IMG/VR virus record: IMGVR_UViG_3300025849_000059
Coordinates: 1-48,653 of that record
DNA: 48,653 nt
Direction: 5' to 3' (one strand)
Source of the DNA: a virus
Shown here: positions 24,800-29,384 of the stretch, one piece after another
Numbering within the stretch: the stretch's first letter is position 1
How the letters are laid out: every line of letters starts with the position of its first letter
The notes under the pieces: generated by a model
Databases searched by the model: none
What the model was told of the DNA's origin: nothing
Seen by the model: only the letters and a program-made list of their open reading frames with translations
Made by a program: the position numbers and the translations under genes

Positions 24800-25288
24800 A
24801 TGGCAGAAGTATTAGAATTTAACGATATGTTCTACACGAACTTCGAACCGAAGATGAAGAACAGATACATCATGGAAATTGATGGTATCGCTTCTTATCT
24901 TATCAAAACGGCGAATAGACCTTCTATTCAATTCGAAGTAGTAACACTAGACCACATCAACGTAAAGAGAAAATTAAAAGGTAAAGGTGAATGGCAAGAT
25001 ATTGAAATCACTTTATTTGACCCAATCGTTCCAAGTGGAGCACAACAAGTAATGGAGTGGGTGAGAACTTCACACGAATCTATTACAGGTAGAGATGGAT
25101 ATGCAGATTTCTATAAGAAAGATTTAGATATCTATATGTTAGGACCAGTTGGTGATAAAATTGAAAATTGGAAACTTAAAGGTGCATTTATTAACAATGC
25201 AGTATTTAATGATTTGGACTGGGCTTCTAATGACCCATCAGAAATCACTTTAACACTTTCTTACGATTACGCAATCTTAGAATACTAA
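24800..25288 (+). CDS. 19: Tail tube protein (gp19-like)
   Basis: This 162-residue protein forms the inner tube through which DNA passes. Its size matches T4 gp19 (163 residues). Motifs include FEPKMKNRYIMEIDGI, VTLDHINVKRKLKGKGEW, ITLFDPIVPSGAQQVMEW and the C-terminal LTLSYDYAILEY, all typical of the tube family. A GGAG ribosome-binding site precedes the ATG and a strong terminator follows, so tube mRNA can be made as a single-gene late transcript, fitting the high amounts needed. Unlike T4, where the portal gene follows, here tail chaperone genes follow. Confidence 0.96.
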   Translation: MAEVLEFNDMFYTNFEPKMKNRYIMEIDGIASYLIKTANRPSIQFEVVTLDHINVKRKLKGKGEWQDIEITLFDPIVPSGAQQVMEWVRTSHESITGRDGYADFYKKDLDIYMLGPVGDKIENWKLKGAFINNAVFNDLDWASNDPSEITLTLSYDYAILEY

Positions 25289-25315: not shown

Positions 25316-25345
25316 AAAAGGTTCTCTTAGTGAGAACCTTTTTTT
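25316..25345 (+). terminator. Rho-independent terminator after tube gene
   Basis: An 11-bp perfect stem AAAAGGTTCTC / GAGAACCTTTT with a 5-base loop is followed by a T run. Confidence 0.93.
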
Positions 25346-25409: not shown

Positions 25410-26168
25410 ATGGCAAATTATGATTTTCCAACAGAAATCATCTCACTACCCTCACAAGGTAAGTGTTACCCTGAGAGCAATCCTCTCTCGAAGGGAACCG
25501 TTGAGATTAAGTATATGACTGCACGTGAAGAAGAAATTCTTGCATCGCAGAATCTAGTGAGAAGGGGGGTAGTGATAGATAAGTTATTCGAATCAATTAT
25601 AGTTGAGAAGGATATTAATATAGATGATATTGTATTAGGGGATAAAAACGCAATATTATTAGCAACTCGTGTTTTGGGTTATGGGCCAGATTATAAAATA
25701 CAGCTCACTAACTCAATAGGAGAACAACAAGAGGAAACAGTTGATTTAGGTAAAGTACAAACAAAAGAAATTGACTTTGAGAAACTTTCATTAGAAAACA
25801 AGTATGAATTCACTACACCACATGGGGGTAATAAATTAGAGTTTAAAATTCTAACTCATGGTGATGAAAGGAAAATTGATGCTGATATAAAAGCTTTATC
25901 AAGGTTAAATAAAGGTAGTGTTTCTGCTGAATTAACAACAAGATATAGATATATGATTCTATCGGTAGATGGTGAATCAGATACTAAAACAATAACTAAT
26001 TTTATTAACAACAAGTTTATAACTCGTGATACCAAAGCGTTTAGAGAACACATACAAACGATAACACCCGATATCGTTATGGAGTTTGAGTTTATAGATG
26101 ATGAGACGGGAGAAGGAGAGGTTAGGTCCATTCCCATGGGTGTTGGGTTTTTTTGGCCTACCGAGTAA
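25410..26168 (+). CDS. T4 gp26-like tail assembly chaperone / baseplate protein (pre-frameshift product)
   Basis: This 252-residue protein starts MANYDFPTEIISLPSQGKCYP, the hallmark of the T4 baseplate gp26-type family. It continues with YMTAREEEILASQNLVRRG...LFESI and LLATRVLGYGPDY, typical of that family. The position directly before the tape measure and the partial overlap with a second frame match the G/GT tail-chaperone arrangement. The reading frame ends GVGFFWPTE. Just before the stop is a seven-T run (26148-26154, GGG TTT TTT TGG in frame) where ribosomes could move into the frame of the next ORF. Role by family: binding and guiding tape measure and hub assembly. Confidence 0.85.
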   Translation: MANYDFPTEIISLPSQGKCYPESNPLSKGTVEIKYMTAREEEILASQNLVRRGVVIDKLFESIIVEKDINIDDIVLGDKNAILLATRVLGYGPDYKIQLTNSIGEQQEETVDLGKVQTKEIDFEKLSLENKYEFTTPHGGNKLEFKILTHGDERKIDADIKALSRLNKGSVSAELTTRYRYMILSVDGESDTKTITNFINNKFITRDTKAFREHIQTITPDIVMEFEFIDDETGEGEVRSIPMGVGFFWPTE

Positions 26169-26385
26169 CTACTCAGTTACACTCCATCAACAGATTTTTG
26201 AAATATGTTATTATGGTAATGGATTTACTCAAGAAGGAGTTTACAGATTACCAATACATATTAGGAGATTTTACTACCAACAACTTGCAGATGCTAAGAA
26301 GAAAGAAAGTAATGAAGTAAAAAAATCTCAAAGACAACAAGGAGGCTCTTCCCCAAAAGGGCCAAATGTAAGAGTGAGGAAATAA
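26098..26385 (+). CDS. Frameshift extension of the tail chaperone (post-shift domain, GT-like)
   Basis: This ORF overlaps the end of the gp26-like gene in the +1 (equivalently -2) frame. Its first ~27 codons lie inside the upstream gene, and its ATG-ATG lacks a clear ribosome-binding site, so it is more likely reached by a shift at 26148-26154. That would give a fusion of about 324 residues. Downstream of the shift it encodes LHQQIFEICYYGNGFTQEGVYRLPIHIRRFYYQQLADAKKKE. This has the aromatic-helix-plus-LPxxxRRFY pattern seen in tail assembly chaperone C-domains. The basic tail ends at a stop embedded in the terminator stem. The alternative is independent initiation, as a gp51-type gene. Confidence 0.7.
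   Translation: MMRREKERLGPFPWVLGFFGLPSNYSVTLHQQIFEICYYGNGFTQEGVYRLPIHIRRFYYQQLADAKKKESNEVKKSQRQQGGSSPKGPNVRVRK
26148..26154 (+). promoter_or_regulatory. Probable slippery site for programmed +1 or -2 frameshift
   Basis: In the zero frame the codons are GGG TTT TTT TGG. A Phe tRNA on the second TTT can re-pair perfectly one base forward (next codon GGC) or two bases back. Either move enters the open frame that continues to 26385. Confidence 0.6.
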
Positions 26386-26401
26386 TTTCCTCACTTTTTT
26401 T
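26373..26401 (+). terminator. Terminator overlapping the end of the chaperone extension
   Basis: AGTGAGGAAAT and ATTTCCTCACT form a long palindromic stem followed by TTTTTT. The TAA stop of the ORF lies at the top of the hairpin. Confidence 0.9.
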
Positions 26402-26438: not shown

Positions 26439-26678
26439 ATGAAAATAACTAAAAAACAATTAAAAGAACTAAAATCCAAACCATACTTTCAAAACGAAGG
26501 TATTATAAGTAGATTATTTGCAAGAAAGTTAGGAAAACTATTAAGAAAGGATACTGATTTTAAAAAGGCAGTAGATAATTTGGATAACTCAATGGATATA
26601 TTGAAAAAACAAATTATAGATGCTGAGAAAAATGGTATCAAGATTCCACCTGGAATGAAAAAATACGCTGGAATGTAA
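26439..26678 (+). CDS. Small basic helical protein before the tape measure
   Basis: The start is the ATG at 26439, which has a GGAG site 7 bases upstream. An in-frame TTG at 26427 would overlap that site and is rejected. The 79-residue product begins MKITKKQLKELKSKPYF, is Lys-rich and has a helical middle (FKKAVDNLDNSMDILKKQIIDAEK), ending PPGMKKYAGM. Function unknown. It ends 3 bases before the tape measure start, so the two are translationally linked. It may be a further chaperone or tail-tip component. Confidence 0.65.
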   Translation: MKITKKQLKELKSKPYFQNEGIISRLFARKLGKLLRKDTDFKKAVDNLDNSMDILKKQIIDAEKNGIKIPPGMKKYAGM

Positions 26679-26681
26679 TAA

Positions 26682-29384
26682 ATGGCAAAGCAAACAAAAG
26701 CACAGTTAGAGAAAGAGTATCAAGATGCTCTAAAAATATCTTCTTCTATGGTTGGTGATTTAACCAAACTATTAGATGACAATACTAGTGCCACAAACAA
26801 AAAAACAGCTGCAGAAAAGGGTTATCAAAAATCTCTAAAACAAATGTTAGAAGATAGTGATAAGGCATCTAGTATTCAAGAACGTATTGCTGGTATCGAA
26901 CAAGAAAAAGAAAAGTTTGCTAAAAATTACTTTGGTAAAAATAAACAAATTGGTCAATTAGCAATTGCAAATCTAAATGTAGAACAAGATAAATTAAAAA
27001 CTCTTGATATTGTTGACCAAAAAGCTAATGGACTTGCAGATAAACTAAGTTCAGGTCTCGATGGAATGCAATCTAGCTTAAAAAGTATTCCAGTCTTGGG
27101 AGGATTATTAGATAGTGTTACTCAAGGTCCTCTTAAATCAATGAAAGGTGCTATATCTGATTCAGCAAAAAGTTTTGTTACCGGATTTGGTGAAGCCGCT
27201 AAAGGTAGTAAGGCTGGTATCATGGGATTTGTTAAATCTTCCATAGGAGGATTCAGAGCTATGGGTATCGCAATGTTAACTGGTCCTCAAGCAATTATAT
27301 TTGGTTTACTTGCAATAATCGCCGCAGGAATTGCTGCATTTGCTAAAATGGAAGCAGGTGCAAAAGCATTTAGGGATGAGACTGGATTACTAAATTCCCA
27401 AACCAAACAAATGGAACAGAATATAAATTCTGTTTATATGGAAACTGCAAGTTTGGGTGCATCTATGGAAGATGTTGCAAAAGCAGCAGCTGATTTCACA
27501 AACGAATTTGGTGGTATTGAACAACCTGCTGAAAATACAATGAAATCCATGATGGTTCTTAGTAAGAACTTTGGTGTTTCTACACAAGATGCAGCAAAAT
27601 TAAATAAATCATTCCAAAACATGGGAGGGTTAAGTGAAGAAGTTGCTCAATCTAATTTAGAAGGATTAACACATTTAGCTAAACAAGCGGGTGTAGCTCC
27701 TGGTAAGATAATGGCTGATATAGCTGATTCTGCTGAAGATGCGAATGGATTCTTTAGAGGAAATGTACAAGCAATGGGAGCTGCAGCAATAAATGCCGCA
27801 AAACTCGGTACATCTCTTAAAGAAGCAGTTAAAGTATCTCGTGGTTTATTGGATTATCAAAATTCAGTAAGTGGTGAAATGGAAGCTAGTGCTATTCTTG
27901 GTACAAACCTAAACTTCTCTCAATCTCGTTATCTTGCAGCTCAAGGTGATGTAGTTGGTGCACAGGCATCGATGGTAGAACAACTTAAAAATTCTGTTGA
28001 TTTACAAAATCTAAGTGTATTTGAACAAGAAGCTCTTGAAAAAGCAACAGGTATGACACTTGGTGAAATGCAAAACATGGCAAGAATCCAAGAATTGGGA
28101 TTAAGTACTGAAGGTGAAAGAGGAAAACTTTTACAAAAAGCACTTAAAGCTGGAATGGATATCTCTAATATGAGTAAAGAAGAGATAGCTGCAGCAACTG
28201 ATAAATTAGCATTAGATGAACAAAGACAAGGTAGATTAGAATCAATGGGTAATAAAATGTCTGCATTTGGAAGTACTATTTTACAAGCATTCCTACCAAT
28301 AGGGGAAGGTCTTATTGCAATCATAGAACCAATATTTTCATTAATTCAATTTACAACCAAATTTTCAATAAGTGCAATCAAGTTACTTGGCGAACAATTC
28401 AAAAATATAATGAACATAGTAAAGGGAATTTTTACTCTTGATATGTCCCTAATAGGAGATTCGTTCATGGCAGTTATTAGTGCACCTATTAACTATCTTA
28501 GAGACATGTTTCCTAAAACAATGGAATATATTGGAGGTCTTGTAACTGGTATAAAAGATAAATTCACAAAAATGATTCCGAAAGAAACTTTAGATAAAAT
28601 ATCTGGTTCCTTCAAATCCATGAAAGAATCTTGGGAAAAAATAAAAGGAAGTTTAGCAAAATCATTTGAAAAAATTAAAACTGCATTTTTACCTGTAAAA
28701 GAAGCTTGGACTAAAATCTTTGGAGAAAGTAAATCTACTTTATTTGATACAATTGGAAAAGTATTTGGATTTGTTGCAGGTGTAGTTGGAAATGTTATTG
28801 GTAAGGTCTTTGGAGTAATTGCATCAATCGTAGAAAGAGTTGCAAACGTATTTAGTTTGGTTGCAGAAGTTTTAAATGGTGATATTGGTATTGGTGAAGC
28901 ACTAATGGGAATTGCTTCAAATTTATTTGAAATAATAATGACTATACCAAGTTTATTGTGGGATGGATTTACTTCTATATTTGGAGGTATAGGTTCATGG
29001 TTAAAAGAAAAAATTCTATCAGGACTAGGTTCTGTTGGTAGTTATTTATTTGGAGATGATGAAGAATCATCAACTGAAACTGAAATTAAAACTTCATCAA
29101 CACCAGCTGACCAATCTGATATCATGAAAGTATCATCTCCTATTGGGGAAACTGAAATGGGAGCAATTACTAAAATGGCTGCAAGTGGTGATATAGTTGG
29201 TGCAACAGCAGCAGCAAATGCATCTAACACAGATATGAGTGCAGTAGTGAATGCTATAAAAGAATTAACAACTGTATCCTCATCAAATAAAGATGTTTAT
29301 ATAGATAACGAAAAAATTACATCTCGTATTTCAAAAACACAAGAGAAAAGTAATATTAACCAATTTGGATTAATGGGAGCTTAA
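26682..29384 (+). CDS. Tail tape measure protein
   Basis: This 900-residue protein sets tail length and is threaded through the tube. Supporting features: size, position after the chaperone pair, helical Ala/Lys/Gln-rich sequence throughout, coiled coil in the first ~120 residues, and a hydrophobic stretch at about 195-222 (GIAMLTGPQAIIFGLLAIIAAGIAAF). More hydrophobic helices lie near 690-760. Hydrophobic segments are usual in tape measures and may act in membrane passage of DNA. Residues 250-500 (VAKAAADFTNEFGG, MASLGAS-like) look like the TP901-type tape measure core. No peptidase or lysozyme motif was seen. Confidence 0.88.
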   Translation: MAKQTKAQLEKEYQDALKISSSMVGDLTKLLDDNTSATNKKTAAEKGYQKSLKQMLEDSDKASSIQERIAGIEQEKEKFAKNYFGKNKQIGQLAIANLNVEQDKLKTLDIVDQKANGLADKLSSGLDGMQSSLKSIPVLGGLLDSVTQGPLKSMKGAISDSAKSFVTGFGEAAKGSKAGIMGFVKSSIGGFRAMGIAMLTGPQAIIFGLLAIIAAGIAAFAKMEAGAKAFRDETGLLNSQTKQMEQNINSVYMETASLGASMEDVAKAAADFTNEFGGIEQPAENTMKSMMVLSKNFGVSTQDAAKLNKSFQNMGGLSEEVAQSNLEGLTHLAKQAGVAPGKIMADIADSAEDANGFFRGNVQAMGAAAINAAKLGTSLKEAVKVSRGLLDYQNSVSGEMEASAILGTNLNFSQSRYLAAQGDVVGAQASMVEQLKNSVDLQNLSVFEQEALEKATGMTLGEMQNMARIQELGLSTEGERGKLLQKALKAGMDISNMSKEEIAAATDKLALDEQRQGRLESMGNKMSAFGSTILQAFLPIGEGLIAIIEPIFSLIQFTTKFSISAIKLLGEQFKNIMNIVKGIFTLDMSLIGDSFMAVISAPINYLRDMFPKTMEYIGGLVTGIKDKFTKMIPKETLDKISGSFKSMKESWEKIKGSLAKSFEKIKTAFLPVKEAWTKIFGESKSTLFDTIGKVFGFVAGVVGNVIGKVFGVIASIVERVANVFSLVAEVLNGDIGIGEALMGIASNLFEIIMTIPSLLWDGFTSIFGGIGSWLKEKILSGLGSVGSYLFGDDEESSTETEIKTSSTPADQSDIMKVSSPIGETEMGAITKMAASGDIVGATAAANASNTDMSAVVNAIKELTTVSSSNKDVYIDNEKITSRISKTQEKSNINQFGLMGA

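Follow-up and report, generated by a model that had tools for sequence, protein, structure and literature searches.

Does the gp26-type gene of this T4-related phage yield one tail assembly chaperone or two, and if two, how is the second frame reached? The window (the whole analysed stretch of 48,653 nucleotides) carried a T4-like tail module in which a tube gene, a gp26-type gene, a small ORF and the gene for the tape measure protein follow one another. The upstream neighbour (24800..25288, + strand) encoded a gp19-type tail tube protein (PF06841, E 1.9e-10; phrog_4542, E 4.3e-30). The gp26-type frame (25410..26168, + strand, frame 0) started with ATG at 25410 and stopped with TAA at 26166-26168. 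Its 252-residue product, the short chaperone form, was homologous to gp26 by phrog_150 (baseplate hub, E 2.3e-8) and matched a profile of near relatives with E 2.8e-135. It was overlapped by a +1 frame that was open from 26098 to 26382 and closed by TAA at 26383-26385; the coordinates given in the preliminary description were correct.

The extension that this +1 frame would add (26155..26385, + strand; GLPSNY...VRVRK) comprised 76 residues and a stop codon, for a predicted fusion of 324 residues. It was delineated by the +1 ORF, by an extension HMM, by its selection and by its homology to the -1 extension of cyanophages (both described below). The LPxxxRRFY motif announced for it was indeed present (LPIHIRRFY), though some 30 residues into the extension. 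Its position right before the tape measure gene needed a similar small correction, since a small ORF (about 26440-26678) intervened. The tape measure protein (26682..29384, + strand) was assigned from phrog_58 (E 1.6e-5) and from its position, and is the expected client of the chaperone. Terminator-like hairpins of the + strand were found in the gap between the tube and chaperone genes (25316..25344; -14.5 kcal/mol, z -4.5, with a T run 3' of it) and, by a hairpin scan, around the stop codon of the extension (26370..26398; -15.3 kcal/mol, z -5.7). The latter was encountered in 89 of 225 unique relatives, against 1/225 in a control interval. With one hairpin before the gene and another around the stop of the extension, the two frames, short and extended, have the appearance of a single transcription unit.

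Frame 0 terminated as ...ATG GGT GTT GGG TTT TTT TGG CCT ACC GAG TAA, with GGG TTT TTT TGG CCT at 26145-26159; in the +1 frame the same region was read ...GGT TTT TTT GGC CTA CCG AGT AAC TAC.... The candidate shift site was thus GGG TTT TTT T GGC (26145..26157, + strand). Ten runs of at least seven T were present on the + strand of the window, five of them inside coding sequences; as such a run is not rare there, chance was judged by conservation. The first 80 viral loci, whose proteins were 67-99% identical, kept GGG TTT TTT T and the downstream +1-frame ORF, the lone exception being due to an indel further downstream. In many of these loci a TAG directly 5' of GGT closed the +1 frame, so that no start codon was possible there for the extension. 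Across 57 unique close relatives GGG, TTT, TTT and CCT were single-codon columns despite the available synonymous codons, a property displayed by only 12 of 125 conserved columns; background codon usage in the same genes was 434:173 for TTT:TTC, and GGG accounted for 173 of 862 glycine codons. TGG would be the A-site codon during a +1 shift; it is not rare (10.7 per thousand), which was counted against the +1 reading.

A wider set of 447 junctions was gathered by scans with Mel-JY01, immuto, SP-15-type and cyanophage proteins, and profile HMMs of the extension were run in all three frames at each junction. The extension was assigned to the +1 frame at 337 junctions and to the -1 frame at 96; it never lay in frame 0, and 14 junctions stayed without assignment. 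Deduplication left 329 junctions, 239 in +1, 77 in -1 and 13 without assignment; the loci are related by descent and these counts represent non-independent events. In window-type loci the median dN/dS of the extension, read in +1, was 0.26, which suggests purifying selection. The same +1 arrangement was encountered in Microcystis phage Mel-JY01, Flavobacterium phage immuto, LR756508, Bacillus phage SP-15, LIS04 and GXN1. The LR756508 protein used as query matched no viral contigs, and when bacterial genomes were searched with the SP-15-type alignment, one contig only (L454) was obtained; a mixed alignment of -1 sequences proved too divergent for such scans. One locus (L006) displayed GGG TTT TTT TGG at an apparent -1 site; it was rejected as a real -1 site, the appearance being due to an indel inside the extension.

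The +1 and -1 loci differed in the base that precedes the two phenylalanine codons (FF). The codon before this pair ended in T in three of 217 +1 loci and in 75 of 76 -1 loci; from the codons that these genes use for the amino acids concerned, 119 and 47 would be expected. In the +1 clade this codon stood for many different amino acids (GGG, AAC, AGC, GAC, TCA, TCC, ACG, ACC, ACA), and none of these ended in T. The avoidance of T before the run would ensure that the site is not also a perfect -1 heptamer (T TTT TTT). In the window a G preceded the run and the extension lay in the +1 frame, so that the site did not constitute a -1 tandem slippery heptamer. As judged by these comparisons, the base before the run appears to separate the +1 from the -1 class. 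A tree from which the site columns had been removed required only two changes of direction, one deep split and one at LR756511 (L089); it was built quickly, its deep nodes are weakly supported and its T4 branches are long. LR756511, a huge-phage member within the +1 clade, is apparently a reversal, as its site (T TTT TTC) is of the -1 type. Two SP-15-type loci (L193 and L194) carried GCT TTT TTT CGG with a longer frame-0 tail, a rare +1 site preceded by T.

The direction of the shift had been left between +1 and -2 in the preliminary description. UUU followed by U or C was found at the site of 236 of the 239 unique +1 loci, where re-pairing of the P-site codon in +1 is possible. The remaining three (SP-15-type L198, L201 and L207) displayed AAT CCC AGT instead, at which a +1 shift of Pro-tRNA from CCC to CCA is possible. 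In bacteria, UUU_Ynn has been singled out as a sequence at which +1 shifts are particularly likely (PMC5009743). A -2 ribosomal shift on the T run, which would add one Phe, is known in phage Mu (PMC5009743), and the second UUU of T7 sites can re-pair two bases upstream; with Phe-tRNA this fitted 197 of the 239 loci. It was impossible with Phe-tRNA in the other 42 (TTT CTT TGG, TTT CTA TGG, TTC TTT CGT and others), of which 12 offered no partner even when Leu with a first-position G-U pair was allowed, and we consider it unlikely; of the two directions, +1 was thus the one borne out.

Other genes with T runs use transcriptional slippage, and the T7 homopolymer of the window would allow the polymerase to drop one U, the shortened mRNA then being read normally. 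Relatives with TTT CTT TGG, TTT CTA TGG or TTC TTT CGT contained no run of more than three T and kept the +1 extension nonetheless, and a T that would lengthen the run is precisely what the +1 loci avoided before the site. Sites without a long run or without a -2 partner favour +1 and disfavour slippage as a general mechanism, and we hold the latter to be very unlikely. These relatives also bear on the expectation that the T run would be conserved, and that a relative with its own strong start and no run would speak against a shift. Close relatives did keep the run; some wider relatives lacked it, with the +1 extension kept, with no separate start and with UUU-Y retained. Since the run-less relatives keep a +1-slippery UUU-Y, the shift reading stands, and the T run is one version of the site only.

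A conserved downstream frame would also be accounted for if the extension were a separate gene that starts within the overlap, or if it were translated by coupling. The +1 frame of the window in fact opens with an ATG at 26098, and fragments of the extension are annotated as genes of their own in GenBank records, so that a separate gene is excluded only through the relatives and not from the window sequence. Between the last +1-frame stop and eight codons past the site, 88 of 238 unique +1 loci contained no ATG, GTG or TTG and 173 no ATG; in 65 of the 238, a +1-frame stop was located at most 10 nt before the FF codons. As a separate gene would also leave the invariant GGG TTT TTT codons and the avoided T unexplained, we find it hardly credible. 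Homopolymers are error-prone in sequencing and assembly, and L006 does carry an indel inside its extension. That such an error splits one gene is nevertheless practically out of the question: the 239 unique junctions came from many metagenomes and isolates, with and without a homopolymer and with purifying selection downstream, and the independent isolate genomes of Mel-JY01, immuto, SP-15, LIS04 and GXN1 refute it. Conservation of the frame, selection and codon invariance strongly support the programmed shift that was proposed to join the gp26-type frame to the overlapping ORF. Drawn from sequence comparison, the arrangement of the frames and its conservation, the purifying selection, the clade-wide +1 direction and the homology argue that a programmed +1 ribosomal frameshift very probably yields two forms of one tail assembly chaperone.

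Under this +1 frameshift, most ribosomes would decode GGG TTT TTT TGG CCT ACC GAG TAA in frame 0, with the 252-residue short form as product. In a minority, the P-site tRNA-Phe on UUU would detach and re-pair one base downstream (UUU to UUU in the window, UUU to UUC in some relatives). The shifted ribosomes would continue with GGC CTA CCG ... in the +1 frame and add the 76 residues of the 324-residue long form. By analogy with G/GT of lambda, many short and few long chaperones would then coat the tape measure protein encoded by the neighbouring gene and recruit tube subunits; action on this protein is predicted from the position of the chaperone gene upstream of it. What we infer here are the ribosomal step and its efficiency, the choice of the slipping UUU in the window, and the part that the two forms play in tail assembly.

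Upstream of the shift site, an SD-like GGAGAGG (26115..26121, + strand) was located about 30 nt 5' of the T run. GGAG/GAGG occurred at -31 and -30 in 90/227 and 106/227 loci of the +1 clade, where 4.7 and 27.7 were expected; in the -1 clade it occurred at -16 and -15 in 19/73 and 43/73 loci, where 4.0 and 16.3 were expected. In the +1 clade the element was present with or without an ATG at -12, and owing to this independence it is probably no start site. Known stimulatory SD spacings are 3 nt in prfB and 10-14 nt in dnaX. The spacing of the -1 clade (about -15) is near that of the dnaX-type stimulator; to our knowledge, the -30 spacing of the +1 clade matches no known stimulator. The window site displayed neither an adjacent stop codon nor a close SD, the SD-like element at -30 being the only one. 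A conserved 3' mRNA hairpin was not supported among the five loci considered, in which the fold was inconsistent (z -0.9 in the window, -3.5 in L021, -0.2 in Mel-JY01, +1.8 in immuto and -2.0 in L070); this was counted against the +1 reading. We tentatively suggest, as a rather doubtful extension of the main reading, that the one base before the U-rich pair separates the +1 from the -1 shift and that the -30 element helps the +1 version. If true, the element would be a +1 stimulator of a new, long-spaced kind, which may act by holding a trailing ribosome. An SD-like element about 30 nt upstream was also observed at a similar place in L021, L083, L224 and L082, and its frequency lay far above synonymous expectation.

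Neither Pfam nor NCBIfam provided a family for the window protein or its fusion, and no match was found among solved structures; PF12322 was above cut-off in the relatives LR756508, SP-15 and GXN1. T4 gp26 and gp51 both belonged to phrog_150 / PF12322, gp26 ending at profile position 235 and gp51 reaching 280. As indicated by these profiles, they are the short and long paralogues of one family, in agreement with the earlier remark that T4 uses separate genes. In profile comparisons the +1 fusion matched the -1 fusion of cyanophages and KVP40-like phages over its whole length through the junction (E 1.7e-32), and the two extensions alone matched with E 4.8e-10. The -1 fusion in turn could be aligned with T4 gp51 almost from end to end (E 3.2e-13), and its extension with the gp51 C-terminus (E 1.8e-7). 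Compared directly, the +1 extension and the C-terminus of gp51 matched weakly (E 0.007), so that this link runs through the -1 family. These alignments, which also uphold the proposed link to the G/GT plan, indicate that the predicted fusion of the window is the long form of a T4-type tail assembly chaperone.

Members of the -1 class included the cyanophages P-SSM7, ACG-2014g and S-SSM4, the KVP40-like V09, Aeromonas phages Asswx_1 and phiWae14, Stenotrophomonas phage Moby, Rhizobium phage RL2RES, Caulobacter phage Cr30, Cronobacter phage S13 and others. Their gp26 frame ended with AGT, TCT or GAT TTT TTY (TTT TTG in RL2RES), followed by the extension in the -1 frame. Like the window, the cyanophage and KVP40-like systems employ one gene, with a shift at the same FF position and a homologous short form and extension; they differ by shifting -1 at T TTT TTC, where a T precedes the pair and its second codon is TTC, and by carrying the SD-like element at -15 instead of -30. 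T4 shares the family, the short and long forms and the homologous C-terminal domain of the long form, but distributes them over two genes. Two family copies were found in T4 and one in the complete +1 genomes searched; in the two cyanophages searched the extension appeared as a second, out-of-frame match. T4 gp26 ended with GAG TTC TTT GAG, in which the residues FF are kept and the slippery codons are gone, as expected after a move to two genes. The same two products of one gene family would thus be reached by three routes, frameshifting in one direction (+1) or the other (-1) or a pair of paralogous genes, and the base before the run would provide a simple, testable sequence rule for the direction.

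In its arrangement the locus resembles G/GT of lambda, where a shift close to the end of the short frame lets a single gene, located 5' of the tape measure gene, give two products; the shift in lambda and in other tail chaperone genes is usually -1 (PMC5009743). A very likely +1 shift has been described in the tail chaperone gene of the archaeal Halorubrum virus HSTV-2 (PMC5009743), to which the window is likened by that description. The proposed P-site move is of the same kind as in prfB (CUU_U) and influenza PA-X (UCC_UUU_CGU) (PMC5009743), and several SP-15-type relatives displayed TTT CGT, like the PA-X site. These are unrelated genes and the likeness is convergent; prfB has an adjacent stop and a close SD, both lacking in the window. 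A 2016 review considered G-T frameshifting to be conserved in long-tailed phages with the exception of T4 (PMC5009743). Frameshifting in T4-like phages was already reported by Vladimirov, Gautam and Davidson in 2022 (PMID 34826709), a study cited in the PRFect (PMC10885494) and Adele (PMC12846349) papers for T4-like chaperone genes, the two-gene solution of T4 and poly-T -1 signals. In the literature searched, where Vladimirov et al. 2022 was represented by these citing papers, no description of a +1 shift in a gp26-type gene was found; the +1 clade, the base rule and the SD-like element 30 nt upstream appear to be new.

Hundreds of phage genomes from marine and freshwater sources are annotated with a split long chaperone or with none, and recognition of these shifts would improve such annotation. 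The GenBank records of immuto (L083, 4721-4946), SP-15 (L084, 4239-4440) and LIS04 (L088, after 4229) omitted or split the extension, and a frameshift was marked in none of the three. In two cyanophages, annotated 'gp51' entries of 32 residues (L090, 2182-2369; L091, 2185-2372) corresponded to the tail of the -1 extension of gp26. Cyanophage gp51 has been reported at only about 20% of its normal length (PMC3037559), which is explained if the annotated gp51 is the frameshifted tail of gp26.
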